Assembly (NCBI RefSeq): GCF_032268605.1
Contig: NZ_CP130318.1
Span: forward strand, 4,097,913-4,161,912
Reading direction: 5' to 3'
Source: Paenibacillus aurantius
Lineage (GTDB): Bacteria; Bacillota; Bacilli; Paenibacillales; NBRC-103111
Length of the DNA: 64,000 bases
Shown here: positions 10,241 through 29,153 of the stretch, piece by piece
Position numbering within the stretch: position 1 is the first letter of the stretch
Layout: each line of letters opens with the position of its first letter
Program-made: the position numbers and the translations under genes
Notes under the pieces: model-generated
Told to the model about the DNA's origin: nothing
Seen by the model: only the letters and a program-made list of their open reading frames with translations
The model's database searches: none

Positions 10241-10267
10241 GTTGCCTGTTTGTTGAGAGATCTATTC

Positions 10268-10908: not shown

Positions 10909-11008
10909 CGAAGCTGATCTAAAAAATCAAGCCAGTTACCTCTAAAACTTTTTTTCGTCTATTTCATGGGACGATCTTTTCCATCGATATATGTCCTAGA
11001 CATAGCAC

Positions 11009-11036
11009 AAGGCTGTCGATACACGCCTACAGCCTT
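11009..11036. terminator. Hairpin downstream of the FAD oxidoreductase
   Basis: AAGGCTGT and ACAGCCTT form an 8-bp stem with a 12-nt loop. There is no clear T tract on the minus strand, so it may be a terminator or a decayed site stem (GGCTG/CAGCC resembles site stems). Confidence 0.4.
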
Positions 11037-11135
11037 ATCTTTGTTCGTTTCTCGTTACGATAACCAAGTTACTTCGCGGTCGTGCAGGAAATGCCTTGGT
11101 TTATTCGACTAAACTCAGATGGAGGGCAGGAATTT

Positions 11136-12638: not shown

Positions 12639-12666
12639 AGTCCCCTCCAGATTTAAGTAGCATCAC

Positions 12667-12700
12667 ATGAGCCAAACATATGTAGTGAGCTGGCTCATGA
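12667..12700. terminator. Hairpin between two cassettes
   Basis: CATGAGCC pairs with GGCTCATG around an 18-nt loop and includes the stop codon of the small gene at 12695. No T tract follows, so terminator function is uncertain. Confidence 0.4.
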
Positions 12701-12934
12701 ATCTAAATTGATCCCCATTGACAGACCAACTGCTACATCTGTGATTTCCATGTCCTTCGACGGCAGACAGGAACCAAACAGCTTAAATTCTAACTTAGCC
12801 TCCCACATTATAAACGCGATATCAGGGTTGAATTTGACGAACACCGCCTTCTTTTTCCCAAAATACAAAAAAAACCATACGTGTAACGGTGTTCTTTTGA
12901 ACCTCGTTATATACAAGAAAGACAGCCGATCCAC
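12695..12934 (-). CDS. Small hypothetical protein, possibly a fragment
   Basis: The frame encodes up to 79 residues ending in EAKLEFKLFGSCLPSKDMEI and TDVAVGLSMGINLDS. The first ~10 residues (MDRLSFLYI) come from the site stem-loop, so the real start is likely internal or the gene has lost its 5' part. The composition from RFKRTPLHVWFFLYFGKKKA onward is protein-like. No family recognised and no convincing ribosome site. Confidence 0.35.
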   Translation of the reverse strand: MDRLSFLYITRFKRTPLHVWFFLYFGKKKAVFVKFNPDIAFIMWEAKLEFKLFGSCLPSKDMEITDVAVGLSMGINLDS

Positions 12935-13055
12935 CTTATACTCGGCTGCCTATCATTTTTTGAACTATCGTACCCATTAGCTTAACGAGCCGTATTTCTT
13001 CGCAGGAGCCTCGTTGATTTTTTTTATTTTACTATTTTAACCCGTTGGCGTAACT
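12918..13055. repeat. Two tandem intercassette stem-loops with two cores
   Basis: First: stem ACAGCCGATCCAC / CTCGGCTGCC (12921-12950), core aactatcgtacCCATTAGCttaac at 12963-12985. Second: stem AACGAG / CTCGTT around 12984-13016, core attttaacCCGTTGGCgtaac at 13035-13053. No gene lies between them, so this looks like an empty cassette or a cassette lost by deletion. Confidence 0.78.
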
Positions 13056-13085
13056 ATTCAGACTCATCAAATTACCCAATTGGTC

Positions 13086-13571
13086 TCAGCCGATCCCTGT
13101 AGCCTCGGCCCCTTGATTTTTCGTGTCGCGCATCGTATCGAGAAGGATGAGTGCCACACCGATGGTGATGCCGATGTCTGCAACGTTGAAGATCGGGAAG
13201 ATATAGCTCCCGAATGTCAGCTGGAAGAAGTCGACAACCTCGCCGTACAGCGCCCTATCGAGCAGGTTTCCGATCGCGCCGCCGAGAATCAAACCCAGCG
13301 CGGACAGAAGAAGAGCTTTGCCCGAACTCCGGCTTCTCTGAATATACCATAGGAGGCCGGTCACGACAGCGGTCGTTATGACGATGAAGAACAGCCGCTG
13401 GTTGGGCAGCATGCTGAATGCTGCGCCGTTGTTCTTATATAGATGAATTTTGAAAAACTCGCCGATCACAGAAAGCTGATCGCCGACCTCCATGCTGCCG
13501 GAGACAATTTTCTTCGTAATCTGGTCCAACACAAGCACGACAAGCGCAATCCAGTAAGAATAGGATTTCAC
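13086..13571 (-). CDS. lspA: Lipoprotein signal peptidase (signal peptidase II)
   Basis: About 161 residues with four transmembrane helices. Family motifs are intact: DQITKKIV near the N-terminus, KNNGAAFSML, GAIGNLLDRALYGEVVDF with the first catalytic Asp, and FPIFNVADIGITIG with the second. It cleaves prolipoprotein signal peptides at the lipobox Cys in the membrane. I chose GTG at 13571, 7 nt after GGGGG; longer starts would lie in the intercassette site. GC is higher than the neighbours. A housekeeping-type enzyme as a stand-alone cassette is unusual; it is probably an extra paralogue. Confidence 0.92.
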   Translation of the reverse strand: MKSYSYWIALVVLVLDQITKKIVSGSMEVGDQLSVIGEFFKIHLYKNNGAAFSMLPNQRLFFIVITTAVVTGLLWYIQRSRSSGKALLLSALGLILGGAIGNLLDRALYGEVVDFFQLTFGSYIFPIFNVADIGITIGVALILLDTMRDTKNQGAEATGIG

Positions 13572-13582
13572 TGCGTTTCCCC

Positions 13583-13677
13583 CGAATCTGCCCGTTAGCA
13601 TAACAAGGCTGCCATACATCTTCGCGACAGCATTGCCAATTCCCTTTATTTTACTATCGTATCCGTTAGCATAATCA
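13583..13677. repeat. Intercassette site (complete)
   Basis: Core A aatctgcCCGTTAGCataac (13584-13603), stem AAGGCTGCC...GACAGCATTGCC, core B ctatcgtatCCGTTAGCataa with GTTAGC at 13665-13670. Read on the gene strand, GTTATGC is present at the far end, the R' form seen in Vibrio repeats. Confidence 0.87.
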
Positions 13678-13678
13678 T

Positions 13679-14416
13679 TTACCGGAGTTGATTACCATGA
13701 AATATCTTGAGAATAAAATCGCGATCAGGAACCTCTAATTTGGAATAAGATTTTAGGAACTCTGTATTGTCATACTTAACCTCTTTCAACTCTATCCTTG
13801 ATTGCCCTTCAGCAATCTGTACAAGTGCAAAACGAGCGGCAGGTTTCTCGTAACAACCAAGTGAACCTGGGTTCAGAAACGTATGATCATGATTCGCAAA
13901 GTAATGGCTGGGATGATGATGGCCGAAACAAATAAGGTTTTCTTGACGGTCAGAAAATAGTTCAACGAGATTGGGCAAGCTTGGTTCAACAACAGAACTA
14001 AAGGGATCTTTACTGATGTGGTCTTTAAATCTTTCTTGATTTATATGGTAATGAATCATCAATACGTCTAAAGCTTCATGCGTAAATTTTATAGCCCTAG
14101 GCAAATTGTTCAGCTTTTGAATAAAGGAATACTCCAGTCTACTTGCTATCCATTCGTGATGGCTTCTTACATGCAAATGACTATTTGGGTATTCTTCTCC
14201 ATTAAGAAGTGCTAACACTGCCTCATCATGGTTACCTGTTATCATAGAAATATCATTCCTGGCGAACAGCATGTGGAGCACTTCATTACTATCGGGACCA
14301 ATACCTATCATGTCACCAAGACAAAATATACGATGAACCCCTGATTGATCAATTGCTTGGAGGGCAGCTCTCAGTGCTGGGTAATTACCGTGTATGTCGG
14401 TTATAACAGCGAACAT
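13679..14416 (-). CDS. Metallophosphoesterase (calcineurin-like)
   Basis: 245 residues. The five metal-binding motifs are visible: DIHG at residues 7-10, GDMIGIGPDS near 35, GNHDEAVL near 62, a mid-protein MIHYHIN, and CFGHHHPSHY near 164. This is the YfcE/DevT-type layout for a small phosphodiesterase or phosphatase. The start ATG at 14416 follows AGGAGACC. Substrate unknown. It is a one-gene cassette between complete sites. Confidence 0.87.
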   Translation of the reverse strand: MFAVITDIHGNYPALRAALQAIDQSGVHRIFCLGDMIGIGPDSNEVLHMLFARNDISMITGNHDEAVLALLNGEEYPNSHLHVRSHHEWIASRLEYSFIQKLNNLPRAIKFTHEALDVLMIHYHINQERFKDHISKDPFSSVVEPSLPNLVELFSDRQENLICFGHHHPSHYFANHDHTFLNPGSLGCYEKPAARFALVQIAEGQSRIELKEVKYDNTEFLKSYSKLEVPDRDFILKIFHGNQLR

Positions 14417-14479
14417 TTTTTAAGGTCTCCTTTTTAGGTCTCCTTTTCAGCTTCTATATCTCTGTTGTATAGAACGATT

Positions 14480-14577
14480 TAATGTACCTATCCAGCCCAT
14501 ACTTAATGATTGGCCTACAGGTAATAAAAGCGATGGATCGGGTCCACCGCTGCTCTCTCGTACCCGTTAGCGCAGTG
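14480..14577. repeat. Intercassette site (GCGATGG stem type)
   Basis: Left core degenerate (ctatccagcCCATACttaatg), stem AGCGATGGATCGGG / TCCACCGCTGCT (14528-14554), core B ctcgtacCCGTTAGCgcag with GTTAGC at 14566-14571. It shares about 40 bp with the site at 8445, including aatgattggc. Confidence 0.86.
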
Positions 14578-14644
14578 GATGGTCCTATTCGTATCCAGGT
14601 GCAATGATGTATTGGGCTGTCATTGAGCGTCCCGTAAGTTACTG

Positions 14645-15157
14645 TCATTGGCGTTCATTTGCTTCGATTTGATGGAGGATTTCGTTAACGACGCGCGCGA
14701 TCGGTGCGGTGGCATCGATTATAATCCCCTTTTTGGGAACGCCTTCTTTCGTTTGATACATTCGCGCACTGATTTCCCGTTCCTCTGGTCTGCCTCCCCA
14801 GTCAGTTGGGTCCAGTGCCACTCGCTCATCAATCCGCCGGAGACTGGTTTCCAAGTCGACCTCAAGGACAAACACGCCGTCGAAGAGATCGATGAATTTG
14901 GGAAAATTCCGCGAACCACCGCAGAAAAATGTTACCCCCTCATCCTGATTGGCGACCAAAGATTTTACTTTATCTACATGCCAAATGTGGTTTTCGGGTT
15001 TAAAGCCTTCCGTCGGGGTACCAGTTTCCGGATCGCCTTGATAAACCAATTCACGGTCACCATGAATGGCATGGTAGCCGCGCCGCTGCAATTCGTTGCA
15101 GACCGTAGTTTTGCCGGCGCCGGAAACGCCTCCAATCAGATAATTCCTATTGCCCAT
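14645..15157 (-). CDS. P-loop kinase-like ATPase (AAA_18/adenylate-kinase-like)
   Basis: 170 residues. The Walker A motif GGVSGAGKTTVCNELQ lies at residues 8-23 and HAIHGDRELVYQGDP follows as the nucleotide-kinase second motif. A C-terminal DATAPIARVVNEIL helix matches UMP/adenylate-kinase-like P-loop proteins. The substrate is unknown and could be a nucleotide or an antibiotic. ATG at 15157 was chosen; the in-frame upstream ATG (GAG GGT) overlaps the GGAGGG ribosome site. Confidence 0.8.
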   Translation of the reverse strand: MGNRNYLIGGVSGAGKTTVCNELQRRGYHAIHGDRELVYQGDPETGTPTEGFKPENHIWHVDKVKSLVANQDEGVTFFCGGSRNFPKFIDLFDGVFVLEVDLETSLRRIDERVALDPTDWGGRPEEREISARMYQTKEGVPKKGIIIDATAPIARVVNEILHQIEANERQ

Positions 15158-15209
15158 GGTTAGACCCTCCATTCAACTGGATAAGCACAATATATTAGAT
15201 TTCTACTTT

Positions 15210-15238
15210 ATCGCTAAACTGCCCTTTAGCTCAATCAA
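15210..15238. repeat. Intercassette core (single)
   Basis: atcgctaaactgCCCTTTAGCtcaatc. The GTTAGC has become TTTAGC, a variant also present at 10825, 16959 and 21360. Confidence 0.65.
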
Positions 15239-15275
15239 GTTGTTTATTCACCCAGTGTAAAAATATGGCCCTTTC

Positions 15276-15752
15276 TTACTCCTGGATTTCAATATCGTGT
15301 TCCTTACACCATTCAATTACTAATTCCTTTATCTTACTTTCTTTGTACTTGTTCCAATGTTTATCAACACCATGTTCTATTACTCCATCTTTAAATCTCC
15401 TAAACGCTCCTCTTCCTTGAATGGCATCATTCAGTTCTTCTCTAATGTCTTCATCCTCTAGAGTCCCGATAAAATCCTGTATGATTTCATATTCGTTGTA
15501 ATCGTTTCTTAACGTGAAGTCAACGTAAACCCCGTCTTCATCCTCAATAATGCTTATTGCTTTTTCTATGTTCTCTCTTTGCCATTCAGGAAAATTTTCA
15601 AGTGGTTTTTCATCTTCTGCAGCCCCAATTTCTTCTCTCATTAATGTAATAACTTCGCCTGTTTTGCTGTTTATAAAAGTAAAAGTATCTTCAATTTGAA
15701 GTTCAATTTCACCGACTAGATCATCCAATTTTACTGGTTCGTTATTCTTCAT
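15276..15752 (-). CDS. UPF0158 family protein
   Basis: 158 residues, very acidic. The family opening VKLDDLVGEIELQIEDTFTF with INSKTGEVITL is clear, followed by a helical part with ENFPEWQRENIEKA and a C-terminal IKELVIEWCKEHDIEI. I chose ATG at 15752 (MKNNEP) because AAAGGGGC lies upstream and the longer reading extends into the intercassette stem. Function is unknown across the family; cytoplasmic. One-gene cassette. Confidence 0.8.
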   Translation of the reverse strand: MKNNEPVKLDDLVGEIELQIEDTFTFINSKTGEVITLMREEIGAAEDEKPLENFPEWQRENIEKAISIIEDEDGVYVDFTLRNDYNEYEIIQDFIGTLEDEDIREELNDAIQGRGAFRRFKDGVIEHGVDKHWNKYKESKIKELVIEWCKEHDIEIQE

Positions 15753-15794
15753 TTGTCTATAAGCCCCTTTCCATTCATACAAACATCTTGTCCA

Positions 15795-15894
15795 AAAAAC
15801 AAACAAAGCTACCCAATCGGCAGCTTTGCACTTGATTTGATTAGATGATACCAATTTTTTGGCCACCAAACTATCGTATCCGTTAGCTTAATCA
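15795..15894. repeat. Intercassette site
   Basis: Stem CAAAGCTACCCAATCGGCAG/CTTTG at 15802-15829, then core B ccaaactatcgtatCCGTTAGCttaatc with GTTAGC at 15882-15887. The left core is degraded. A broken transposase remnant follows the core directly. Confidence 0.75.
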
Positions 15895-15920
15895 GAAGGC
15901 TCAGAACGGCCTTATATCTG

Positions 15921-16094
15921 GCTGTACGGTGTGGTCTGCGCAGCTCACGAAACCAGAAGCTGCGGGCTTATTACGATAATAAAAAGCGTGCTGAAGGCAA
16001 ACCCTTTAAAGTAGCGGTTATTGCTTGTGTAAACAAGCTAATCCAATGGCTTTATGCGGTCTTGACCAAAAAGGAAGCATTTCGTCTAAGTTGA
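15921..16094 (+). pseudogene. IS110-family transposase C-terminal remnant
   Basis: A plus-strand frame reads LRSSRNQKLRAYYDNKKRAE, GKPFKVAVIACVNKLIQWLY, AVLTKKEAF and ends at TGA. This is the C-terminal tail (Transposase_20 end) of an IS110-family transposase. The rest of the element is absent. It lies 30 bp after a core, like the other IS110 copies in the window, so an element probably entered here and was deleted. Confidence 0.8.
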
Positions 16095-16209
16095 GCAAGA
16101 AACACTAACCTTCTTAGGAAAACCTTCCCAAGCCTTAAGGGACGGTTATTTGTCATGTTCTTTTTTCAGTATAACACCGTTGACTTTAACCATTAAGAAT
16201 TAAATATTG

Positions 16210-16240
16210 ACAAGCTATTAGCTAGAATAGCTTAACCCAA
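16210..16240. repeat. Degenerate core downstream of plsY
   Basis: gctattagctagaatagcttaaccc resembles a core (tagcttaaccc) that has decayed. It marks the 3' side of the plsY cassette on the gene strand. Confidence 0.4.
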
Positions 16241-16269
16241 TCATCTTCTTTGGCACAAATAAAATAGTA

Positions 16270-16893
16270 TCAAAGAATAAGTTTACTTTCTTTTCCTGAA
16301 AGCAGTCTTATTATATTTCCCCTATGCCTGAAAATAGTCATAACCGCCATTAAGCATGCAAATAAATAAAAATAAAAGGTATTCCCGAAAACAGGAATAA
16401 ATGAAATAGCCGCAAAAAGCAATGTAGCACATATTGTGCCTAAAGAAACATAACGGGTTAAAGCTACTATTATCACAAAAAAAACAAGGCATAAAAGGGC
16501 CATAACCCAGTTAACCATAAACAGCACAGCCACTGCTGTGAGTGCTCCCTTGCCCCCTTTAAACCCAAAATATAACGGCCAGTTATGCCCTATAACTACA
16601 CCTGCTCCTGCCACTAAAAGACTTACACAATCTTTAGCGTCTCCCGTATAAAAGTAAACGCCAATAAAAAATCCTATATAACAGGCAATTATCCCTTTTA
16701 ATATATCTCCCGCAAGAACAAACACCGCGGCAGATTTCCCAAGTACCCTAAGAGTATTGGTAAGCCCGGCGTTTTTGCTTCCATGGCTTCTTATATCCTT
16801 GCCATATATTTTCCCTACAATCACCGCTGTATTAAGGCTCCCTAGCAGGTAGCCTAAAGCTAAGGCCACAAAAAGCTTTAAGATATCAATCAT
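16270..16893 (-). CDS. plsY: Glycerol-3-phosphate acyltransferase PlsY
   Basis: 207 residues, multi-pass membrane enzyme that moves an acyl group from acyl phosphate to glycerol-3-phosphate, the first step of phospholipid synthesis. Motifs are intact: GYLLGSLNTAVIVGK, HGSKNAGLTNTLRVLGK, GHNWPLYFGFKGGKGA and the closing FRHRGNIIRLLSGKE. Like lspA, this is normally a core chromosomal gene. Here it stands alone between intercassette cores, with lower GC than its surroundings, which suggests acquisition as an extra copy. GAGAAGAGAC precedes ATG at 16893. Confidence 0.93.
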   Translation of the reverse strand: MIDILKLFVALALGYLLGSLNTAVIVGKIYGKDIRSHGSKNAGLTNTLRVLGKSAAVFVLAGDILKGIIACYIGFFIGVYFYTGDAKDCVSLLVAGAGVVIGHNWPLYFGFKGGKGALTAVAVLFMVNWVMALLCLVFFVIIVALTRYVSLGTICATLLFAAISFIPVFGNTFYFYLFACLMAVMTIFRHRGNIIRLLSGKESKLIL

Positions 16894-16948
16894 GTCTCTT
16901 CTCCCGTGAAATTATTTATTACGATTTATATTCTTCATAGCACCAAGC

Positions 16949-18829
16949 TATCCTGCCCTTTAGCTTAATGCCTCCCGCCTTCCAGTCCTATACTTTATTT
17001 TAACAATCAGATTTCCTCAAGATGTAGGCGAAAGACGCCCCATGTGAAGATTCAGGATGAAATTCAAGACATATTAGAATTTGGACGAGAGCAAGCAGAG
17101 AACCTTCTCGTCAAAGACAAGAATAAATCACCATCGAAAAAGCTAAGCACAATAAGGTTTCCCGTATCTTTTATACTTCTTTCTTGCCCACAGGGATGAA
17201 ACCTTTGGGGATATTTCTCGTCTATTGTAGCAAGAACAGAATGAAGGAGTGGCGGCTATCAGACGGCTTTCGAATGCAGTATGCGTAATGTTGTTAACGA
17301 TCGTGTTATTGTCCGGATGCCGGGGCATTGGCGGGCAAGCGATCATTGATTGGGCCGATTTCCTGAAGCTGAACGGGATTTCGTACAGCCATTACTGGTA
17401 TGCTGCCTTGACGGATCCAGCGAAAATAGGTGGTAAAGTTGGTGAGGTTGCGTTCCAAGTCGCGGACAATGTCCACAATCCGGGTTATAAGACGAAGAAT
17501 GGGGATGCCGCATTCCTGGCCAAAGGAACCGTCGTTTATGCAGTAGAGGGTTATTCTGATCATTCCGTCGTAGCCGTCAAGGATCCGAAAGCCTTCAACG
17601 GCTATCGGCTGTATGCGAACGACCAAAAAATTCAGGAGCTGTCCGCATCGCTTGAGCCAGTAGAGCAAACCGTGAAAAGGGCGATTATTTATAAGGAGTC
17701 TTCAGACGATAAGCCGATTGTGGATGTCCAGGGCGTGAGCGCTTCGTTCTTTGTTTCGCTCCTAAAGCGCAGCGAGGATCGGGAAAGCTACACGCCGAGC
17801 CGAACGAACGGTGATCCGAAAATGTACCGATTTGTAATCGATACGGGAAAATCGATCGGCTACTCGAATATCGTCCTTGACGATGGAGTAAGCTTTTATT
17901 GGCAAGACCGGAACACCAAGCTACTGCCTAGCGAATTTGCCTATTACTTTGCGGAACCGCGTAGACCAGTGTTCCGGTGGGCGATATCGAATTTACGCTG
18001 CCGCGCAGCTCTTTAACGCTGGCGACAGGAGAACAGATCAAGCAGGACGGTTCGACGAACAATATTACAGTTTTGTCGCGAGATGGGAAAACAGAGCGAT
18101 ATGTATTTCCGGCTGAAGCTTACGATAATCTGCTCAAACGCGTGCAGTTGGAGAACCCAGGCAGTGGAGAGTCAAAGACGATCCTTTACTGGGCGTCCCG
18201 ACCGACGCCGGTCAATGACGGCAGAGCCATTGCGTTCGAGTCGAACAAGAATGCTGTTCTAACCAAGAAGCAAACGTTCAGCATCCATCTCGTCAATGCC
18301 GACGGGACGGGCGAGAAAGTACTTGTCGACGGCGCCAAGTACGGCTATGCGGTACTGCTGGATAGCTTCGGAAGCAGGCTCGTCGCAGAGAGCGAAGATC
18401 GATCGGTACTCGATATCGACGTCGTAACGGGCGCCATTCGCAAGCATGAAGTAAACGGTCATCTCGATGCTCTGTCGAAAGACGGGCGTTACGTGCTATA
18501 CCGGGGTATGGACAGTGATGTGCTGGTCGGCCGCAAGCTGTGGGTAATCGATCTGGAAACGGGGCAAAAGACTGCGGCCGGCGACGTGCCACAGGATTAT
18601 ATCTACAATAAGGGAATCAAATAGAGGGTGGTTTCGAATGTCGCGATTTTCATTCTATCCTCCCTCAGTTCCCACAACGCTTTTCAGCATTGGCTTGAAC
18701 AAAGTTACACACTTTTATCATCATTGCAACTGTATCCAGGTTATTTTCTAAATTCCAGTATTGTTCCTAATTAGACAGGCTGTCGGTTTTTTCCGGCAGC
18801 CTTGTCATTGAAGTATCGTGCCCGTTAGC
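16949..18829 (+). repeat. Duplicated cassette, copy 1 (core to core, 1,881 bp)
   Basis: Identical in length to 21350-23230, with about ten differences. Similarity starts at tatcctgccctttagc and ends at tatcgtgcccGTTAGC; sequences outside differ completely. The unit thus equals one cassette plus its site. The first ~300 bp is a leader without a recognisable gene (one ~50-codon open stretch containing DILEFGREQAENLLV). Relative to copy 2 it carries a 1-bp deletion in the gene. Confidence 0.93.
17249..18624 (+). pseudogene. Lipoprotein gene, frameshifted copy of 21650-23026
   Basis: The gene starts at GTG 17249 after GAAGGAG and encodes a lipoprotein (lipobox LLSGC) of unknown family with a TolB-like repeat end. 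A single G is missing at about 17979 compared with copy 2 (gttccggtggg versus gttccgggtggg), so the frame breaks after ~245 residues and resumes in another phase up to 18624. The rest is nearly identical to copy 2. It runs on the plus strand, against nearly all other cassette genes. Confidence 0.88.
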
Positions 18830-18832
18830 ACA
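18765..18832. repeat. Intercassette site (end of duplicated cassette, copy 1)
   Basis: Stem GACAGGCTGTCGG / CCGGCAGCCTTGTC (18774-18807), core B gaagtatcgtgcCCGTTAGCac. A further hairpin, AAGGCTA...TAGCCTTT at 18836-18863, follows. Confidence 0.85.
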
Positions 18833-18915
18833 AATAAGGCTAACGGTCTTGCCCATAGCCTTTCAAATAGATAACTCGTGACATATTACCGTAGGAGGGG
18901 CTAATGTGTATTCGT

Positions 18916-19254
18916 CTAACTATCGTTGCCCAGGTTTCCCCATCGTTCCAAAAGCCAGCCATTTTCTAATATATCATCATCCGTGAGCTTGCCCAATTTC
19001 ATCTTGGCCAGAAGTACGAGTTCTCTCCGATTTGTATACTCAAAGTCCTTGTATATTTCTTGATTCTTTTTATGGAATAGGTGAATCAGTTCAGTAAGCT
19101 CGAAATATGGCAATGTCCCCTGCTTCCATTCCAAAAACGACTGATACAACGGTTCCAGGGCTTGTTCCGTAACCATTTTATGATACTCATCTAGAAGTTC
19201 TCTTTCTTGCTGTTTTTTTAGTTTTGCACCCGACTTATTCTCCACCCTCATCAT
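18916..19254 (-). CDS. Hypothetical helical protein
   Basis: 112 residues, highly charged and predicted all-helical: KLKKQQERELLDEYHKMVTE, then a conserved-looking LEWKQGTLPYFELTELIHLF and a helix-rich NRRELVLLAKMKLGKLTDDD end. No signal peptide or membrane segment. Its stop is a TAG at 18916 in gtctaactatcg. I do not recognise a function. It is a one-gene cassette between the core at 18824 and the IS110-interrupted core at 19341. Confidence 0.6.
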   Translation of the reverse strand: MMRVENKSGAKLKKQQERELLDEYHKMVTEQALEPLYQSFLEWKQGTLPYFELTELIHLFHKKNQEIYKDFEYTNRRELVLLAKMKLGKLTDDDILENGWLLERWGNLGNDS

Positions 19255-19327
19255 CCTTTGTTCTGGTTATTAAACTCTTACCCTTTATCCTCTTTCTGAG
19301 AAAGCCAGTAGCCGATCGATAATTTCA

Positions 19328-19345
19328 AACTCTCGTGCCCGTTAG
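19328..19345. repeat. Intercassette core interrupted by IS110 copy A
   Basis: aactctcgtgcCCGTTAG is followed directly by gattcctgg, the left end of an IS110-family element. The right half of the core is not adjacent. Confidence 0.8.
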
Positions 19346-19385
19346 GATTCCTGGAGAGCGTTAATTTTGCGCTTTGCACAAAAAC

Positions 19386-19452
19386 GAGCGACTCCGGTAC
19401 GATGGGGTAGTCACGGGTTCATAGCCCTTTAGCCATCTTAAGGAGGTCGCTC
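19386..19452 (+). other. Structured leader of IS110 copy A
   Basis: GAGCGACTCC pairs with GGAGGTCGCTC around a ~46-nt interior that includes CACGGG and AGCCCTTTAGCC. The right arm contains the transposase ribosome site. Counterparts are in the other three copies (see findings). Confidence 0.55.
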
Positions 19453-19456
19453 TAGC

Positions 19457-19676
19457 TTGAAGTTTAAAGCTCAAGCCAAACAAAATCAACTGCTCGAACA
19501 CATTTCAACTCGGCACCTTGTCGTCGGCATTGACATCGCCCAGCAGTCCCATGTTGCTCGCGCCGTCAACTTCCGTGGGATCCTGCTTGGCACTCCTCTC
19601 CATTTCTCTAACGACGATGCCGGCTTCAATCAACTGCTGCAGTGGATGAAAGATCTGCAGGGGACGCATCAACTGG
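19457..19676 (+). pseudogene. IS110 transposase, N-terminal fragment
   Basis: TTG at 19457 opens a frame with the RuvC-like N-terminus HLVVGIDIAQQSHVARAVNF, containing the first catalytic Asp, and breaks after about 73 residues. It lacks the DEDD remainder and the Transposase_20 domain, so it cannot be active. Confidence 0.85.
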
Positions 19677-19714
19677 AACAAGCGGTCGATGATGTCGGCC
19701 CTAATTGTCGTTGC

Positions 19715-19743
19715 GTTAATGTTCCCAGTTAGCATAACCCATC
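19715..19743. repeat. Intercassette core
   Basis: gttaatgttccCAGTTAGCataaccc, GTTAGC at 19728-19733, seven bases before the stop of the next gene. Confidence 0.75.
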
Positions 19744-19749
19744 AAGATT

Positions 19750-20748
19750 CTAAATCTCATTCAGCCATCCTTCAATTTCATTAATTTTCTCCGCATAACG
19801 CTTAATATTTAGTATGGTACCAGAAACTTGTTGCGTCCCCGCTTTCTGTTCATCTTGATCCGTGCAATCAATCCATAAAGACCGCTTTAGACAATATTCT
19901 AACCAGTCTAACTTCCCCAAAAATCCACTTGCTAGTATCATTCTCCAGTTTGCGTGGATCTCGTTTTGTACTGTTCCTTTATAGCCATCTATGAAAGATA
20001 AGAACTTGTCTTGGTCAATCTCGCCCGCTCCATTTTCAGACCAATAAATAGCCGTTTCAATTAGGTCTTGTTTAGGGTTTCTATACCCTGCACATTCCCA
20101 ATCAATTAGGACTGGGCTATCATTCCACAAGACATTTTTAGGGTCTAGGTCGCCATGACTGATGACCATATCCGTTGAAATTTGCATGGCTGAATTTATA
20201 GCTTCGACATTCCAATCGTTAAGCATTTGACTGTTTTCAAATAATAAACTTGTCCATTCGGCATTACTCTCTTGTCCTTTTTTCAGATAGAAGTTCCAGT
20301 CAGTTAGTCGACGTTCTTCAGACGAATTATTAACTATCCCGAGGTCTGAAAAATCCCCCATATGTAGAGAAGAAAGAATGCTGCCCATTGTTTTGCAATG
20401 ACCCGAATTTATTTCACTATGCTTAAGGCTTTTGCCATCCAGCCATTCAAATACGAGACAGAATTGCTGATCCACTTGTTGAATAGAGGCACCATTAAAA
20501 GTCTTAGCCGGAAGAGCAGGTACAAAATTTGCAGCACGATTAGCGATGAGTTCTGATCTTATGAAGTTTTCCATGGCCGTTGGTCTGGCCATAATTTCAG
20601 GATTTAATGCCTTGACTACATATCTACCTGAGGTGGTTTGTATTGCATACATACGATGTAATAAACCGCCTGATAACGCATGAGGGGCAATTTCTAAATC
20701 ACCAAGCCCTAATTCATTACATAGAATCTCAATTTGACGAGGGTCCAT
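19750..20748 (-). CDS. APH-like phosphotransferase
   Basis: 332 residues of the aminoglycoside/choline kinase fold. The catalytic loop is MVISHGDLDPKNVLWNDSPV with LIDWECAG as the Mg-binding motif (about residues 198-225). The nucleotide-binding lobe has GGLLHRMYAIQT and YVVKALNPEI with the conserved Lys. The real phosphoryl acceptor is unknown; resistance is possible but cannot be claimed. I chose ATG at 20748 after GGAAGGTG; 12 upstream codons are in frame but lie before the ribosome site. Confidence 0.83.
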   Translation of the reverse strand: MDPRQIEILCNELGLGDLEIAPHALSGGLLHRMYAIQTTSGRYVVKALNPEIMARPTAMENFIRSELIANRAANFVPALPAKTFNGASIQQVDQQFCLVFEWLDGKSLKHSEINSGHCKTMGSILSSLHMGDFSDLGIVNNSSEERRLTDWNFYLKKGQESNAEWTSLLFENSQMLNDWNVEAINSAMQISTDMVISHGDLDPKNVLWNDSPVLIDWECAGYRNPKQDLIETAIYWSENGAGEIDQDKFLSFIDGYKGTVQNEIHANWRMILASGFLGKLDWLEYCLKRSLWIDCTDQDEQKAGTQQVSGTILNIKRYAEKINEIEGWLNEI

Positions 20749-20805
20749 TCTATATTCACCTTCCCACCAACTTCTTCCATACAAGTAATGTACATGTTCT
20801 ATGAG

Positions 20806-20902
20806 ACAATTACGTTATCCTGCCTTAACGAAAAAAGGAGCAGCTGCCGCGGCGGCAAACTACTCCATGGAACTTTGAACTAACGTACCCGTTAGCGGAA
20901 TC
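20806..20902. repeat. Intercassette site (GGAGCAGC stem type)
   Basis: Left core reads ttatcctgccttaacg, i.e. core A with CGTTAGC deleted. Stem GGAGCAGCTGCCGCGG...CTACTCC at 20837-20866. Core B aactaacgtacCCGTTAGCgg with GTTAGC at 20891-20896. Confidence 0.83.
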
Positions 20903-20913
20903 ACCGCACTGAT

Positions 20914-21304
20914 TTAACTTCGTCGTACAACTTCCCCCAATATAGATGGCATGTTGTTTTCAAACTGCTGTAATAGTTCCGCTCCAAAAACAGAAATTGT
21001 GTTTTCCCATGGGTGTCCTAAGTATCCCCATTTGAATTCTTTATGTAAGTAAAAATAATAATCACCGTCTGGGTAAAAGGATATTGTCCAATTCGCCGAT
21101 CCTTTTTCCAAGTGGGGATTATACAAAAAGGACTCTTGCTGCCAGTCCAAAGCAAAGACATATTCATCTGGTTCAGTTATTGCTTTTAGAGAGTTGACAC
21201 ACTTCTCATCATACTGTGAATACTTGGGTTAAAATTGAAAACCTCGTAGAACTTATCCAAACAATGCGATATTGCTCATCAGTCAATGGAATCCAATTCC
21301 CCAT
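20914..21304 (-). pseudogene. DUF2716-like protein gene with two frameshifts
   Basis: The C-terminal frame encodes DWQQESFLYNPHLEKGSANW, TISFYPDGDYYFYLHKEFKW and GYLGHPWENTISVFG. Upstream, the same protein continues in two other frames: an ATG at 21304 opens MGNWIPLTDEQYRIVW, then DKFYEVFNFNPSIHS in a second phase, then CVNSLKAITEPDEYVFALD in the final phase. Two small indels therefore disrupt it. Composition recalls DUF2716. AGGTACTTTAAATG is a usable start context. The gene is probably dead. Confidence 0.68.
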
Positions 21305-21349
21305 TTAAAGTACCTCCCACTGCCTTTTTCCCTTATCTTACCATTAAAT

Positions 21350-23230
21350 TATCCTGCCCTTTAGCTTAATGCCTCCCGCCTTCCAGTCCTATACTTTATT
21401 TTAACAATCAGATTTCCTCAAGATGTAGGCGAAAGACGCCCCATGTGAAGATTCAGGATGAAATTCAAGACATATTAGAATTTGGACGAGAGCAAGCAGA
21501 GAACCTTCTCGTCAAAGACAAGAATAAATCACCATCGAAAAAGCTAAGCACAATAAGGTTTCCCGTATCTTTTATACTTCTTTCTTGCCCACAGGGATGA
21601 AACCTTTGGGGATATTTCTCGTCTATTGTAGCAAGAACAGAATGAAGGAGTGGCGGCTATCAGACGGCTTTCGAATGCAGTATGCGTAATGTTGTTAACG
21701 ATCGTGTTATTGTCCGGATGCCGGGGCATTGGCGGGCAAGCGATCATTGATTGGGCCGATTTCCTGAAGCTGAACGGGATTTCGTACAGCCATTACTGGT
21801 ATGCTGCCTTGACGGATCCAGCGAAAATAGGTGGTAAAGTTGGTGAGGTTGCGTTCCAAGTCGCGGACAATGTCCACAATCCGGGTTATAAGACGAAGAA
21901 TGGGGATGCCGCATTCCTGGCCAAAGGAACCGTCGTTTATGCAGTAGAGGGTTATTCTGATCATTCCGTCGTAGCCGTCAAGGATCCGAAAGCCTTCAAC
22001 GGCTATCGGCTGTATGCGAACGACCAAAAAATTCAGGAGCTGTCCGCATCGCTTGAGCCAGTAGAGCAAACCGTGAAAAGGGCGATTATTTATAAGGAGT
22101 CTTCAGACGATAAGCCGATTGTGGATGTCCAGGGCGTGAGCGCTTCGTTCTTTGTTTCGCTCCTAAAGCGCAGCGAGGATCGGGAAAGCTACACGCCGAG
22201 CCGAACGAACGGTGATCCGAAAATGTACCGATTTGTAATCGATACGGGAAAATCGATCGGCTACTCGAATATCGTCCTTGACGATGGAGTAAGCTTTTAT
22301 TGGCAAGACCGGAACACCAAGCTACTGCCTAGCGAATTTGCCTATTACTTTGCGGAACCGCGTAGACCAGTGTTCCGGGTGGGCGATATCGAATTTACGC
22401 TGCCGCGCAGCTCTTTAACGCTGGCGACAGGAGAACAGATCAAGCAGGACGGTTCGACGAACAATATTACAGTTTTGTCGCGAGATGGGAAAACAGAGCG
22501 ATATGTATTTCCGGCTGAAGCTTACGATAATCTGCTCAAACGCGTGCAGTTGGAGAACCCAGGCAGTGGAGAGTCAAAGACGATCCTTTACTGGGCGTCC
22601 CGACCGACGCCGGTCAATGACGGCAGAGCCATTGCGTTCGAGTCGAACAAGAATGCTGTTCTAACCAAGAAGCAAACGTTCAGCATCCATCTCGTCAATG
22701 CCGACGGGACGGGCGAGAAAGTACTTGTCGACGGCGCCAAGTACGGCTATGCGGTACTGCTGGATAGCTTAGGAAGCAGGCTCGTCGCAGAGAGCGAAGA
22801 TCGATCGGTACTCGATATCGACGTCGTAACGGGCGCCATTCGCAAGCATGAAGTAAACAGTCATCTCGAAGCTCTGTCGAAAGACGGGCGTTACGTGCTA
22901 TACCGGGGTATGGACAGTGATGTGCTGGTCGGCCGCAAGCTGTGGGTAATCGATCTGGAAACGGGGCAAAAGACTGCGGCCGGCGACGTGCCGCAGGATT
23001 ATATCTACAATAAGGGAATCAAATAGAGGGTGGTTTCGAATGTCGCGATTTTCATTCTATCCTCCCTCAGTTCCCACAACGCTTTTCAGCATTGGCTTGA
23101 ACAAAGTTACACACTTTTCTCATCATTGCAACTGTATCCAGGTTATTTTCTAAATTCCAGTATTGTTCTAGTTAGACAGGCTGTCGGTTTTTGCCGGCAG
23201 CCTTGTCATTGAAGTATCGTACCCGTTAGC
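21350..23230 (+). repeat. Duplicated cassette, copy 2 (core to core, 1,881 bp)
   Basis: Begins at tatcctgccctttagc and ends at tatcgtaccCGTTAGC. Outside these points the two copies share nothing: ttagtcaaac follows here, acaaataagg in copy 1. The internal ~300-bp leader (21366-21649) has no recognised gene. Its gene is intact. Copy 2 is 2.5 kb away from copy 1, with unrelated cassettes between. Confidence 0.93.
21650..23026 (+). CDS. Lipoprotein with TolB-like repeats, unknown function
   Basis: 458 residues from a GTG 5 nt after GAAGGAG. Signal peptide with lipobox (VMLLTIVLLSGC, Cys24) predicts an extracytoplasmic lipoprotein. The middle (about 30-270) is unrecognised. The end (about 300-450) contains β-propeller-like units: IHLVNADGTGEKVLVDG, RLVAESEDRSVLDIDVVTGA, DGRYVLYRGMDSDVLVGRKL and LWVIDLETGQKTAAG, as in TolB/WD40-type folds. 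It is the only intact cassette gene on the plus strand. Its GC content is higher than that of neighbours. Copy 1 is frameshifted. Confidence 0.75.
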   Translation: MAAIRRLSNAVCVMLLTIVLLSGCRGIGGQAIIDWADFLKLNGISYSHYWYAALTDPAKIGGKVGEVAFQVADNVHNPGYKTKNGDAAFLAKGTVVYAVEGYSDHSVVAVKDPKAFNGYRLYANDQKIQELSASLEPVEQTVKRAIIYKESSDDKPIVDVQGVSASFFVSLLKRSEDRESYTPSRTNGDPKMYRFVIDTGKSIGYSNIVLDDGVSFYWQDRNTKLLPSEFAYYFAEPRRPVFRVGDIEFTLPRSSLTLATGEQIKQDGSTNNITVLSRDGKTERYVFPAEAYDNLLKRVQLENPGSGESKTILYWASRPTPVNDGRAIAFESNKNAVLTKKQTFSIHLVNADGTGEKVLVDGAKYGYAVLLDSLGSRLVAESEDRSVLDIDVVTGAIRKHEVNSHLEALSKDGRYVLYRGMDSDVLVGRKLWVIDLETGQKTAAGDVPQDYIYNKGIK

Positions 23231-23233
23231 TTA
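23165..23233. repeat. Intercassette site (end of duplicated cassette, copy 2)
   Basis: tctaGTTAGacagg, stem GACAGGCTGTCGG / CCGGCAGCCTTGTC (23175-23208), core B aagtatcgtaccCGTTAGCtta. TTA is the stop of the next minus-strand gene. Confidence 0.87.
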
Positions 23234-23458
23234 GTCAAACGATTTATTCCTTAGAAGTCTAATCATTACTTGTCCTATAAATAATAATCCTAAGACTACC
23301 AATAATATTGCCACGAAATTCGGTAAGACCATCATTATCCCACTTCCTTGGTCAGGTCCTCCGCTTTCTTCTAAGATCTTGTTCCACCACATGTAACCTT
23401 TAGCACCCAGAAGCATACATAAGACACCAAATAATAAGCGTAATAGGGTGAACGGCAT
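23231..23458 (-). CDS. Small two-helix membrane protein
   Basis: 75 residues with two predicted transmembrane segments: TLLRLLFGVLCMLLGAKGY (about 4-22) and LPNFVAILLVVLGLLFIGQV (about 45-64). They are joined by a short loop KILEESGGPDQGSG and end in a basic tail. AGGAGATAG precedes ATG at 23458. The stop is formed by the TTA after core B. No family recognised; membrane location is inferred from hydropathy. Confidence 0.65.
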   Translation of the reverse strand: MPFTLLRLLFGVLCMLLGAKGYMWWNKILEESGGPDQGSGIMMVLPNFVAILLVVLGLLFIGQVMIRLLRNKSFD

Positions 23459-23479
23459 TGCTACCTATCTCCTTTCACC

Positions 23480-23525
23480 TGTTGACGTTACTGCATTTCT
23501 GCCTGTTATCGCAGCAGTGAAACGT
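23480..23525. repeat. Degenerate intercassette site
   Basis: tgcatttctgcctGTTATCgcagcagtgaaacg resembles core A (ctgcccgttagcgcagc). A weak CACTGCT pairing is possible. Right core not evident. Confidence 0.4.
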
Positions 23526-23559
23526 ATTGTTTCATCGTTGCACTCTTTTTCAATAACAC

Positions 23560-24174
23560 CTATTCGAACTGTACTTCCTGATCCAAAATGATTTCTTTCG
23601 GGGGGGTCCCCATAGGGCTAGAGAATGGAATAAGAGCAAATAGAACTTCTCTTATATCATCGGGCAATCGCGGTCTAACCAAGAAACTTAGGTGTGCTTG
23701 TCCACCGCCGCCATGGGATCCATGCGAACGAACGAAAAATTCGTCTTTACCTTTTACCTCCAAAAGCAACTTAGGGCGAATATGCCCTGCATGGTCGACA
23801 TTTCCACTCCTAATCTCGAGGTTCACCACGCTCGCGTTCTCATGCTGCATGGCATGAGTGATGAAATATTCAAAGCTATCATGAATCGTCTTCTTCATAA
23901 TAGGAACCACACTCAATAGTTCCCCCGGCTCATTTCGAATAAAGGGTTGCTCGGGATGATTTAAGCTATGCATAAGCCAGTTGATTTGAGGGATGTCCAT
24001 CTCATACCGATTTGCCCACTCTTGAATCATTTCCTGAGGCGGAAAAATCCGTTTGCCTCTAGAAAGACCTTTTCTGTCTTGAATCAATGTCATTATTGAT
24101 TCATCGATCGATTTAAACTTATCATTGTATTCATTTGGAATTGCCTTTAACTCACCCCAACCCATTAAAAACAC
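23560..24174 (-). CDS. Hypothetical protein
   Basis: 204 residues, soluble. The N-terminal half is helical (IDESIMTLIQDRKG, then PPQEMIQEWANRYEMDIPQI). The C-terminal half is β-rich with a glycine/histidine segment FFVRSHGSHGGGGQAHLSFL (about 150-170) followed by RPRLPDDIREVLFALIPF. The start could be ATG at 24174 or the second ATG at codon 4. No family recognised. It is bounded by degenerate and good sites, making it a cassette gene. Confidence 0.55.
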   Translation of the reverse strand: MFLMGWGELKAIPNEYNDKFKSIDESIMTLIQDRKGLSRGKRIFPPQEMIQEWANRYEMDIPQINWLMHSLNHPEQPFIRNEPGELLSVVPIMKKTIHDSFEYFITHAMQHENASVVNLEIRSGNVDHAGHIRPKLLLEVKGKDEFFVRSHGSHGGGGQAHLSFLVRPRLPDDIREVLFALIPFSSPMGTPPKEIILDQEVQFE

Positions 24175-24240
24175 TCCATTTCTTAAAGAGTTTTTTCCTT
24201 ACACAATTTACTCAAACCATATTTTACCATACATTTGTAC

Positions 24241-24352
24241 ACAAAACTGCCCGTTAGCGCAGCAAGACTGCCAATCATCTTCTCGGCAGCCTCAAACTCC
24301 CTAGGTATGATCAGGCTTTCTCACGTGTGCTCGCTCTCGTGCCTCTTACTGT
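24241..24352. repeat. Intercassette site (right core degraded)
   Basis: Core A caaaactgcCCGTTAGCgcagc (24243-24263), stem AGACTGCC / GGCAGCCT (24265-24293), right core decayed to ctctcgtgcctcttactgtagc. Confidence 0.78.
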
Positions 24353-24370
24353 AGCACTTATTCATGTCTA

Positions 24371-24904
24371 CTAAGTAATTTCATACTCATATACCCCGCA
24401 TAGCTGTACTTCTTCTGAGACAAGTTGTAATAACGTTGCAATGACCATACCGTGACAAACGACAATTACCTTAGACTTATCAAGATATTGGCATAAAACG
24501 TTCCTTACCCGTTCATTGACACTTTCCTTCGATTCCCATAATTTACGCTCCCCAGGAGGGTGGACTCCGTCATGTTTCATGTAGTCGTTCCATAGTTCTG
24601 TGATTTGCTGAACACATGTTGCTTGCCAATTATCCGGGGTCCATTCATGTAAATCAAATTCCACTTTAATAGGCAATCCTATATTCCTGTTAATAATGGC
24701 GGCGGTTTGTAAAGAACGTGTGTACGGTGACGATAGGATCAAATCGCACTCTGACAAATGATTATGGTTTGCTATTATCTCTTGAGCCTGATACACGCCG
24801 GCATCTGTCAAAGGAACAAAATCTCTTAGTGCTCCTTTCAAATTTCGTTGCTCCTTTAATGTCCAATTCGGCTCTCCATGACGAATTAAATAGAACATGG
24901 TCAT
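24371..24904 (-). CDS. Histidine phosphatase superfamily protein
   Basis: 177 residues with the phosphoglycerate-mutase-like fold. The catalytic RHG motif is in YLIRHGEPNW (about 6-15), the second arginine region in LILSSPYTRSLQTA (about 55-68), and the second histidine in VIVVCHGMVIATLL (about 145-158). It would dephosphorylate a small phosphorylated substrate. Either ATG at 24904 or the one two codons later can serve. A second family member lies in the biosynthetic cluster at 42519. Confidence 0.85.
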   Translation of the reverse strand: MTMFYLIRHGEPNWTLKEQRNLKGALRDFVPLTDAGVYQAQEIIANHNHLSECDLILSSPYTRSLQTAAIINRNIGLPIKVEFDLHEWTPDNWQATCVQQITELWNDYMKHDGVHPPGERKLWESKESVNERVRNVLCQYLDKSKVIVVCHGMVIATLLQLVSEEVQLCGVYEYEIT

Positions 24905-24924
24905 AGTGGTTTACCCCCTAATTT

Positions 24925-25018
24925 GCGACTGCCAATAATTGAGCAGAAGAACGGTGATTAAAATAAGCGATGGATCGGTTCCATCGCTGTGCCCTCGTTT
25001 CCCGTTAGCTCAACGACA
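24925..25018. repeat. Intercassette site (GCGATGG stem type)
   Basis: Stem AGCGATGGATCGG / TTCCATCGCT (24966-24989), core B cctcgtttcCCGTTAGCtcaacg with GTTAGC at 25004-25009. The left core is degraded. Confidence 0.82.
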
Positions 25019-25151
25019 GTGAAACACTATAATGGTCATTTGTCACTTTTTTAGATATAGGAGTTGGAACTGTTCCCAAAAGCCCCACTCCTTTTACAAC
25101 AGGCTCAGGGATCTCTCAGTTTGGCGATCTTGTCGTTGATTTTCGACCAAA

Positions 25152-25177
25152 AGAAAACCACCCAAAAAGAGTGGTTA
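25152..25177 (-). terminator. Terminator of the DUF3800 gene
   Basis: On the minus strand AACCAC/GTGGTT forms a stem around a T-rich loop and TTTTCTTTT follows. It lies 18 bp after the stop at 25195. Confidence 0.75.
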
Positions 25178-25194
25178 TTAACGAGGCTAAGACT

Positions 25195-26277
25195 TTAAAT
25201 GAAATGTACAATCGCGGCGTCGTGCTCTTGGTTACGGTAATCGTGCAAGTTTAATCCCAACAACTCGACGACGAATTGCGCGAAATCGTCCTTGTGGTTC
25301 GTACTCGTTCCGGATTGATTTAAGGTTCGACTGATGCTACCAGTGAACAGGTCCGCGAGTTGGATGAAGATATTGGCAATCGAACTGACGGAAGAAAAGA
25401 TGTTTAGCATCAAGTTATCTTCGAAGTAAGTCCTAAAGTTGCCGACCAAGTGCTGCTCCAGCTCATTAAGAAACAACTTGTCATTGCCATCTTCTTTGTC
25501 CTTCCAAAAGTTGACTCGCCTTGGCAAGGTGATTCTGCCAGAACCAACTTCGTGCACGATGCCATGATGAACGTGCTGGTAGTACATGGCGTATACTGCT
25601 TCATCAATAGGGCGGCTGCTTCCGCGAAATTCTACAACGACCGCTTTGAAGCCCATCATGTCCATAACGGAAACGGCTTCCTTTATCAGTTCTTTATAGA
25701 TGTCCAACTGTTGTCGTTTCATTTCGGTAAAGTGAAATTCCTTCGGCACGTTAATGCCGGAGTTTTGTTGTAGCTCCCGCCACATAATAAAGTGTCTACG
25801 AAGCTCTTCGAGCCGTTCGACGCTAAGCACTCACAGTCCTCCGATGACCATGAATTTGTCGCCACCGGTTTTACCGCTTTCGTCGCAAAAAATGTTAATC
25901 GTCGGGACAGCTGGCTTATTAGCAATTTGTATTTCCTTTTCGGTTTCTTCCTTACCCTTACGAATTTGCGTTATACGATCATCCGCAAGGAAAAGCTTGT
26001 ATTCATTTTGGATCTTCGCGCGCGCACGGGCGATCGATGTATCTCGCTCCAAGGAAAACATCCGCTCAACATCTATTACGCTACCGGTAAATCCCTGAAA
26101 GATGTGCCAATATTTAAGCTTCAGCGCCATATCAGAGTTACGGGTTTCGCCGTAGTGATTCAAGATGTATGCCACCCTCGAAATAAGCGTAACGAGATTG
26201 CCAGATGCTAGTGCGTCTTTTAGGCGCTCTACTTCTCGTGCGATCCGATCCTGCTTGTCCTTTGGCTTTGCCGGCAC
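25195..26277 (-). pseudogene. DUF3800-like protein gene split by an in-frame TGA
   Basis: The first part (26277-25831) ends INIFCDESGKTGGDKFMVIG-GL, the DE-S-G motif of DUF3800 proteins. A TGA at 25833-25831 interrupts the frame. The second part continues in phase without loss (VLSVERLEELRRHFIMWREL) to 25195, about 211 more residues including FRGSSRPIDEAVYAMYYQHV and a DLFTGSISR helix. GGAGG lies 7 nt before the GTG that follows the TGA, so reinitiation could yield a second polypeptide. The N-terminus may also be shifted: AGGAGGA-ATG at 26353 opens only five codons before a stop. Confidence 0.7.
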
Positions 26278-26353
26278 AACATCTTTCGGTGATTCCTGCG
26301 TTACGCGAGCCTCGATTGAGGATACTTCTGACGCTTATTCAAATGGCAACCGT

Positions 26354-26735
26354 CATTCCTCCTAGTGAAATATTTAGCTATATTATACCACAAAATGGAA
26401 AGACTATATTTAGGCCAACGTGGGATCGGTTTAACAATCATTCATGTTCGGACAAGGCATATGTCTATTGCTACCCGCTCCTTGGATCCACATAATACGC
26501 CTCCTCTCTCCTTCTCATAATCCCTCTTGTATTATTTCAATATTGCAAGGCATTCTATTTCTTGAATCGTTCTACGGGCTTTCTGAGAGGCCTGAGAAGC
26601 ATAGATTGGTACAAGGTTCCCGTTCCATCCCATCATCCTTCTATTAGGACAAATTACAAGCCGTATAAGAACATGAAAAACGCTCCCAGCTGCAGTAGCT
26701 AGGAGCGGGTTTACTATTACTTTGGCTAATTAGGT
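26354..26735. other. Non-coding stretch
   Basis: No supported gene. Short open frames on the plus strand have no ribosome site or family signature. It holds one minus-strand terminator (26676-26707). Confidence 0.4.
26676..26707 (-). terminator. Rho-independent terminator
   Basis: CGCTCC/GGAGCG with inner AGCT pairing; on the minus strand GGGAGCG is followed by TTTTTC. It ends the decayed small gene at 26736. Confidence 0.65.
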
Positions 26736-26792
26736 TTATTCACCAACCATGCCGTCACCATCACGATCATCCATGTATTTGTATAACCAATG
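26736..26792 (-). pseudogene. Remnant of an acidic DxDGDG repeat protein
   Basis: The minus strand encodes LYKYMDDRDGDGMVGE and a stop. DRDGDG is a calcium-loop-like motif as found at the end of Excalibur or EF-hand-like domains. A stop lies two codons upstream of this stretch, so only ~18 codons survive. Confidence 0.35.
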
Positions 26793-26830
26793 TTATATTT
26801 AGGTTAGGTAAGTTAAACAGTTGAAATTGA

Positions 26831-26911
26831 AAGGACCACACATATTAGATATGTCTAAGATGTGTGGTCCAATTTTATTTTTCTTCAACTAAAGTCTCCG
26901 TTAGTTGAACA
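26831..26911. repeat. Intercassette site with long perfect stem
   Basis: Stem GGACCACACAT / ATGTGTGGTCC (26833-26870) followed on the plus strand by a T-rich run, then core caactaaagtctCCGTTAGttgaac with GTTAG at 26900-26904. The left core is weak (aggttaggtaagttaaac). Confidence 0.72.
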
Positions 26912-26918
26912 ACAAGGG

Positions 26919-27440
26919 CTATTTTCTTGGTTGGGTTTCTTCGAACCATGTAAGTGCAAGCTGTTCCATTTCTGTTACAAAGGCTTTCTTTGCAGGACTA
27001 TATTCGCTTGTGTTTTCAAAGCGTTGAACTAATTCTTCCTTGAATCGACTGTATCTTGCAACCTCTTCAGGATGACTTCTCAAGTAATCTCTGAATATTA
27101 GATGCCGTGCGATCTGGGAATTATCGGCTTGATAAAAATGTATGTGGTGTGTCCTGTTTGCCCCACCTTTGCGGAATAACCTTCTTCCAGGAATACCCCA
27201 GTCTCCAGCGACATCATAACCGAGGGAGTGCATTTTATCATTAAACGAATCAATATTATTGATGTTCTTCACAATACATATCATGTCAATTACAGGCTTA
27301 GCTTTTAAACCAGGAACTGAGGTGCTTCCGAAATGCTCAAATTGTAGGATCTCATCCTTAAATATCGTCTTCAAGAAGTCAGCTTCTTCTTGGAAAAGCC
27401 TAACCCAATCCTCGCTATATTCACTTAATCTAACCTTCAT
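26919..27440 (-). CDS. GrpB family protein (UPF0157, nucleotidyltransferase-like fold)
   Basis: 173 residues. The family signature FEHFGSTSVPGLKAKPVIDM (about 35-54) is the GS-x(n)-D motif of the nucleotidyltransferase-like fold. GGANRTHHIHFYQADNSQIA and LIFRDYLRSHPEEVARYSRF follow, as in the C-terminal domain fused to dephospho-CoA kinases in some bacteria. Biochemical role unknown. ATG at 27440 follows AGGAGGAG, a strong site. One-gene cassette. Confidence 0.88.
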   Translation of the reverse strand: MKVRLSEYSEDWVRLFQEEADFLKTIFKDEILQFEHFGSTSVPGLKAKPVIDMICIVKNINNIDSFNDKMHSLGYDVAGDWGIPGRRLFRKGGANRTHHIHFYQADNSQIARHLIFRDYLRSHPEEVARYSRFKEELVQRFENTSEYSPAKKAFVTEMEQLALTWFEETQPRK

Positions 27441-27489
27441 AACTCTCCTCCTACAGACACAGGTTATAGCCTATATATTCCATATACTG

Positions 27490-27538
27490 TTAAACAATCC
27501 TGCCCGTTAGCGTAATGAGTAACCTCCGTATTAGGGGG
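27490..27538. repeat. Intercassette site (short)
   Basis: Core A aaacaatcctgcCCGTTAGCgtaatg (27494-27518), then a short stem ACCTCC / GGGGGGCT at 27521-27538 directly before the next stop codon. No separate core B. Confidence 0.75.
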
Positions 27539-27539
27539 G

Positions 27540-28529: not shown

Positions 28530-28547
28530 GAGTTCTCCTTGATATTG

Positions 28548-28575
28548 AAACATGTGCCCGTTAGTTTAACGTCGA
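28548..28575. repeat. Intercassette core (single)
   Basis: gaaacatgtgccCGTTAGtttaacgtcg. The TAA stop of the next gene (28561-28563, minus strand) lies inside GTTAG itself. Confidence 0.78.
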
Positions 28576-29022: not shown

Positions 29023-29115
29023 AACATTCTCCCTTTCCTGTTTTAAATAGCTCATTAAGCTTCCACATTCTACATAATTATATCAGATATAGTTCCTAAT
29101 TATGGGAAGAGTACT

Positions 29116-29153
29116 ATTATAACTATCCTGCCCGTTAGCGTAAAGAAGCTGCC
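29116..29153. repeat. Intercassette site, left half at the edge of the conjugation island
   Basis: ataactatcctgcCCGTTAGCgtaaagaagctgcc is core A plus the first stem arm. The second arm is missing: taacaatcgg follows and the array stops for 5 kb. The next core is at 34191. Confidence 0.8.

Follow-up and report, generated by a model that had tools for sequence, protein, structure and literature searches.

How did one segment of DNA come to stand twice in a Paenibacillus aurantius genome, each time between different neighbors, and what kind of system would place it there? The segment lies within a stretch of 64,000 nucleotides that was analyzed whole (the window).

The duplicated cassette and its ends

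A global alignment of copy 1 (16949..18829, + strand) with copy 2 (21350..23230, + strand) matched 1,881 bp, with eight substitutions and two one-base indels, in agreement with the initial annotation, which had described two copies of this length with about ten differences. Its observation that the flanks diverge immediately outside the copies also held: identity dropped there to 33/100 on the left and 25/100 on the right, and the flanks are unrelated. Long flanking homology, which it had named as evidence against its reading, was not found in any form that explains the duplication.

Copy 2 has an intact 458-aa ORF (21650..23026, + strand). In copy 1, one G is missing near 17976, and the ORF is split into two frames (5′ part 17249..18016, 3′ part 17977..18624, both on the + strand); copy 1 is thus a pseudogene through a single lost base, as had been annotated. 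The 458-aa protein matched no Pfam family, and its N-terminus reads as lipobox-like (LLSGC). A homologue 89% identical is present in Paenibacillus sp. Soil787, between that strain's own cores. The gene body alone is common to this locus and the duplicated cassette (90%), and the cassette ends are not, so Soil787 provides no test of the exact ends.

The ten differences between the copies are confined to the final 854 bp, the last 45% of the cassette (P ~4e-4 if evenly spread), so divergence between the copies is uneven. Polarized with an outgroup 90% identical, both copies bear changes judged to be derived, which marks a genuine duplication followed by divergence and excludes an assembly echo. 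Conversion or a mosaic origin is a possible source of the clustering. Given the derived changes in both copies and the clustered differences, conversion or two acquisitions may have played a part: the second copy may have been born inside the array, or the two may have been acquired separately.

All four copy ends coincide with PWM-scored cores, of the CTGCCC type on the left (starting at 16942 and 21343) and of the GTRCCC type on the right (18807 and 23208). In copy 1 these are ACCAAGCTATC-CTGCCC-TTTAGCTTAAT (16942..16969) and ATTGAAGTATC-GTGCCC-GTTAGCACAAA (18807..18834), and in copy 2 ATTAAATTATC-CTGCCC-TTTAGCTTAAT (21343..21370) and ATTGAAGTATC-GTACCC-GTTAGCTTAGT (23208..23235), all on the + strand. 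The duplication therefore runs from core to core, as first proposed. The exact start has to be corrected, as the shared TATCCTGCCC is the end of the upstream neighbor's site; the cassette proper would begin at CCC|TTTAGC.

Two other cassettes had been counted between the copies, which is too few; at least three units were found. The interval holds a unit with a 112-aa ORF (18916..19254, − strand), a core interrupted by an IS110-family element (CCCGTTAG|GATTCC) together with a transposase remnant (19324..19732, + strand), an APH/choline-kinase-like gene (19750..20784, − strand) with an attC-like hairpin site (20816..20901, + strand; degenerate CTGCC core, GC-rich hairpin, and AAC-GTACCC-GTTAGC core), and a decayed small-gene unit.

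IS110-family elements occur in cores at an identical point (CCCGTTAG|GATTCCTG) at window positions 19338 and 50743 and at genome position 5,479,257. Relatives of IS1111/IS110 are known to target the attC sites of integrons. Two of the cassette genes in the window, at 19750-20784 and 27540-28553, are predicted to be aminoglycoside-phosphotransferase-like.

Cores, arrays, and the exchange point

Alignment of the sites defined a 28-bp core with left arm ATTRAACTATC, a 6-bp center (GTACCC or CTGCCC), and right arm GTTAGCTTAAT; the two arms repeat each other in inverted orientation, as do those of a tyrosine-recombinase core. At a PWM score of 16 or more, the window had 30 cores on the + strand and one on the − strand, and shuffled sequence had none. 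The genome, a single contig of 6.30 Mb, bears two arrays, array 1 at 4.09-4.16 Mb and array 2 at 5.47-5.50 Mb, with all sites on the + strand, and further sites at 0.83-0.84 Mb on the − strand. The duplicated cassette belongs to an array segment at 2815..29144 (+ strand) in which all cores are on the + strand and the genes mostly on the − strand; a second segment of the same array occupies 54489..61819 (+ strand) of the window.

Short core-hairpin-core units have spacings that peak at 57-59 and 68-73 bp, and they fold strongly (median z −3.6). Covariation of the core arms inside these units was tested and was absent, so pairing of the arms in single strands lacks covariation support and the folded-arm model is retained on an inferential footing. 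At window 2815-4192, a short insertion whose ends are inverted (CTTTAAGTAGAC...GTCTACTTGACGG) occupies the loop of one such unit and parts the stem halves.

When homologous cassettes in differing surroundings were compared, cores marked 48 left ends and 39 right ends in both partners. Cassettes common to several genomes start at CCC|NTTAG; the compared ends have the right arm in common and unlike left arms, and a differing center travels with the upstream neighbor (loci L150 and L157 compared with L093). This places the exchange at the border between center and right arm, and it maps to CCC/GTTAG within ~1 nt. Since the joined sites differ in their centers and the attI-like sites described below have a 7-bp center, a matched-center exchange of two strands is unlikely, and an integron-like exchange of a single strand may take place instead.

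Recent core-to-core polymorphism was found between array 2 and a genome classed as the same species (G023), where shared blocks are 95-99% identical. Of 22 homology ends, nine coincide with cores, where 2.5% would be expected to do so (P 1.5e-9). The intact core at genome position 5,471,583, ATTGAGCTATC-GTACCC-GTTAGTTCAAT, is empty, and in G023 cassettes totaling 10.6 kb occupy it. G023 lacks, from core to core, a 59-bp hairpin unit of the present genome, and in a core-to-core swap 5.7 kb here correspond to 3.7 kb there. The other breakpoints lie off scored cores, and several resemble ordinary indels.

The initial annotation had asked for related strains with an empty core. Array 2 supplied the contrast of empty and filled cores; the duplicated locus did not, because the whole 90-kb island that carries it is absent from G023, which is therefore uninformative there. 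An array of G023 was considered as the counterpart of array 1 and set aside: Blast gave little beyond short sites, and the orthologous position is an empty Tn7-like target. The duplication had also been presented as what recombination at the cores would give and as the strongest evidence for mobility. The former reading stands, and the latter gives way to the polymorphism of array 2.

G023 lacks genome positions 4,087,310-4,177,693 and has the sequence AGCAA once, where the present genome has it on both sides of the island. The island ends in TGTGTGG...CCACACA, with AGCAA as the 5-bp target duplication, and its right end encodes TnsA, TniB/TnsC, and two TniQ proteins (PF08722, PF05621, PF06527); a 690-aa TnsB candidate had no Pfam match. 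With TnsA, TnsC, TniQ, terminal repeats, a 5-bp duplication, and an empty site, the element is Tn7-like, and these features together make the window part of the cargo of a 90.4-kb Tn7-like transposon. In a core-free part of the island, window 44251-49058 encodes two radical SAM proteins, a methyltransferase, and an NDK-family protein, a cluster that is possibly biosynthetic cargo.

The recombinase and its relation to integrons

A tyrosine recombinase gene at the left edge of array 1 (genome 4,089,357-4,090,094, − strand) is broken, so array 1 is probably not mobile in cis; G023 has no recombinase of this family. Intact relatives of ~280 aa, Xer-like, adjoin arrays in other genomes, and the 13 proteins compared show no variation at the catalytic R, K, HxxR, H, and Y positions. 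By HMM and PDB sequence the closest families are XerC, XerD, and archaeal XerA, with matches below the curated cut-off of each model. With the IntI model (NCBIfam TIGR02249) the scores were 93, 85, and 91 bits, far short of the cut-off of 265. In the alignment with IntI4 (2a3v), query residues 93-182 correspond to 91-180 and 201-267 to 237-305; the gap leaves ~38 IntI residues without a counterpart, so the additional domain specific to IntI is missing. An AlphaFold model was set aside for its mean pLDDT of 52.

We collected 80 genes of this family from GTDB species genomes, mostly Paenibacillus, with Cohnella, Brevibacillus, and "Bacillus sp." records as well. Around them, 245 sites were on the opposite strand and three on the same strand. 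An attI-like site adjoins the gene: in most of the 80 loci a conserved half-site, TTGAACTAGC-GT...CC, precedes the recombinase start by 70-100 bp, and past the half-site, from GTTAG on, the sequence is unrelated from locus to locus. Judged by this pattern, the half-site with its variable continuation is an attI-like junction. A core, CTGCCC|TTTAGTTGAAY, follows the recombinase stop by 19-66 bp in somewhat less than half of the loci, with varying left neighbors, so that the recombinase gene, too, can form a unit bounded by cores; because the strict downstream pattern caught about half of the loci, its description as a cassette covers part of them.

The recombinase family occurs in 43 of 104 family genomes, and the strict core in 69 of the 104 and in 40 of 399 Bacilli genomes, mostly of the same order. 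Sites accompany the recombinase: they were present in 41 of 43 genomes with it and in 28 of 61 without it, in a two-by-two comparison that ignores genome relatedness, and site numbers (289 vs. 65) likewise stand uncorrected for relatedness. On a Sporosarcina psychrophila plasmid (L182 6098-14600), a recombinase 52% identical is found and cores with 7-bp centers bracket merR-merA (mercury resistance).

Strict sites were oriented as the replichore predicts in 108 of 110 cases, in eight genomes with dnaA located; in one genome (G097) the counts were 23/23 and 24/24. As derived from the fork direction, the GTTAGC strand is on the leading-strand template. If, as in integrons, its complement is the active strand, that strand would sit on the lagging template, the reverse of what holds for most sedentary integrons, of which 25 of 30 have the bottom strand on the leading template (PMC5371416).

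The likeness to integrons, including the large sedentary chromosomal ones, extends to cassettes arrayed in tandem with a single orientation, an exchange point adjoining GTTA, sites with hairpins, a recombinase gene whose start faces an adjoining attI-like site, and an array that rides on a Tn7-like transposon; Tn7 carries a class 2 integron. The differences are a non-IntI recombinase without the IntI insert, cores that are 28-bp sites with inverted arms, a recombinase gene that is often core-bounded, and cassette genes that mostly read toward it. The boxes of attC sites were also rare, with GTTRRRY in just 2 of 78 units and RYYYAAC in 8 of 78. As both the IntI and the GTTRRRY tests failed, we do not file the system as an integron in spite of its integron-like working. 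The literature open to us, which left out preprints and most subscription papers, yielded no description of such a cassette system.

Explanations for the duplication and their meaning

We consider it quite probable that what was duplicated is a mobile cassette, and that it belongs to an integron-like system working with a non-IntI, Xer-like recombinase. A unit would start right after the 6-bp center of one core and end after the center of the next, and a dedicated Xer-like tyrosine recombinase encoded beside the arrays would insert and excise units at the cores, presumably as the catalyst. Exchange would occur at CCC^GTTAG, so that matching centers would not be required and each center would remain with the unit upstream. 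One cassette would then have been inserted twice, each time behind a neighbor ending in CTGCCC, by a single-strand exchange in which the sites may take part as folded single strands. By now the array's own recombinase gene is broken, and the whole array is cargo of the Tn7-like transposon.

The 11-6-11 core with inverted arms resembles dif, and in Acinetobacter plasmids pdif modules likewise shuffle small sets of genes between such sites (PMC13141974). The host XerC/XerD could in the same way recombine dif-like sites here, with the linked recombinase as a passenger. We hold this to be unlikely. Reactions at pdif require identical or nearly identical centers and the module sites are inversely oriented (PMC13141974), whereas the sites of an array here are all direct, lie on the chromosome, and recombine despite unlike centers (CTGCCC, GTACCC, GTTTCC; often 7 bp in attI-like sites). 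A dedicated recombinase with a conserved adjoining half-site also tracks the arrays. In contrast to XerC, XerD, and XerA, this enzyme scores below the cut-offs, is linked to arrays, and, as far as seen, is not tied to chromosome dimer resolution.

Transposons or MITE-like elements with core-like ends, moved by a transposase, might account for the hairpin units of 59-72 bp, which recur widely and one of which is present or absent between strains. Such an origin is very improbable for units whose contents are unrelated, with neither target duplication nor common transposase; hundreds of them have the core alone in common, and their orientation is locked to the replichore. We give least credence to an ordinary segmental duplication, by homologous or illegitimate recombination, whose ends lie near cores by chance: conversion could produce the clustered differences, but the flanks have no homology, both ends are at cores, and many other cassettes behave alike.

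Beyond the integron-like cassette itself, a wider reading has somewhat less than an even chance of being correct. It holds that this is a non-integron form of gene capture, in which a Xer-derived recombinase, itself carried as a core-bounded cassette, would insert genes at 28-bp dif-like cores through single-strand exchange that needs no matching centers. It would have built the Paenibacillaceae arrays, with dozens of cassettes, and would extend to the Planococcaceae plasmid with its 7-bp centers.

Integrons are said to be nearly absent from Firmicutes, and a survey with IntegronFinder 2.0 reported a single complete one there, in Limnochorda pilosa (PMC9024848). They had been taken to be nearly absent from the Paenibacillus group of soil bacteria, in which the large cassette array analyzed here is found. 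The cassettes include APH-like genes, and the cores of the plasmid relative flank mercury resistance genes. Searches based on IntI or attC are expected to miss such arrays. A widespread cassette system in Firmicutes would offer an independent test of why cassette arrays arise and of how general their replication-linked orientation is, and it would test whether the job of IntI takes more than a plain Xer-like enzyme.
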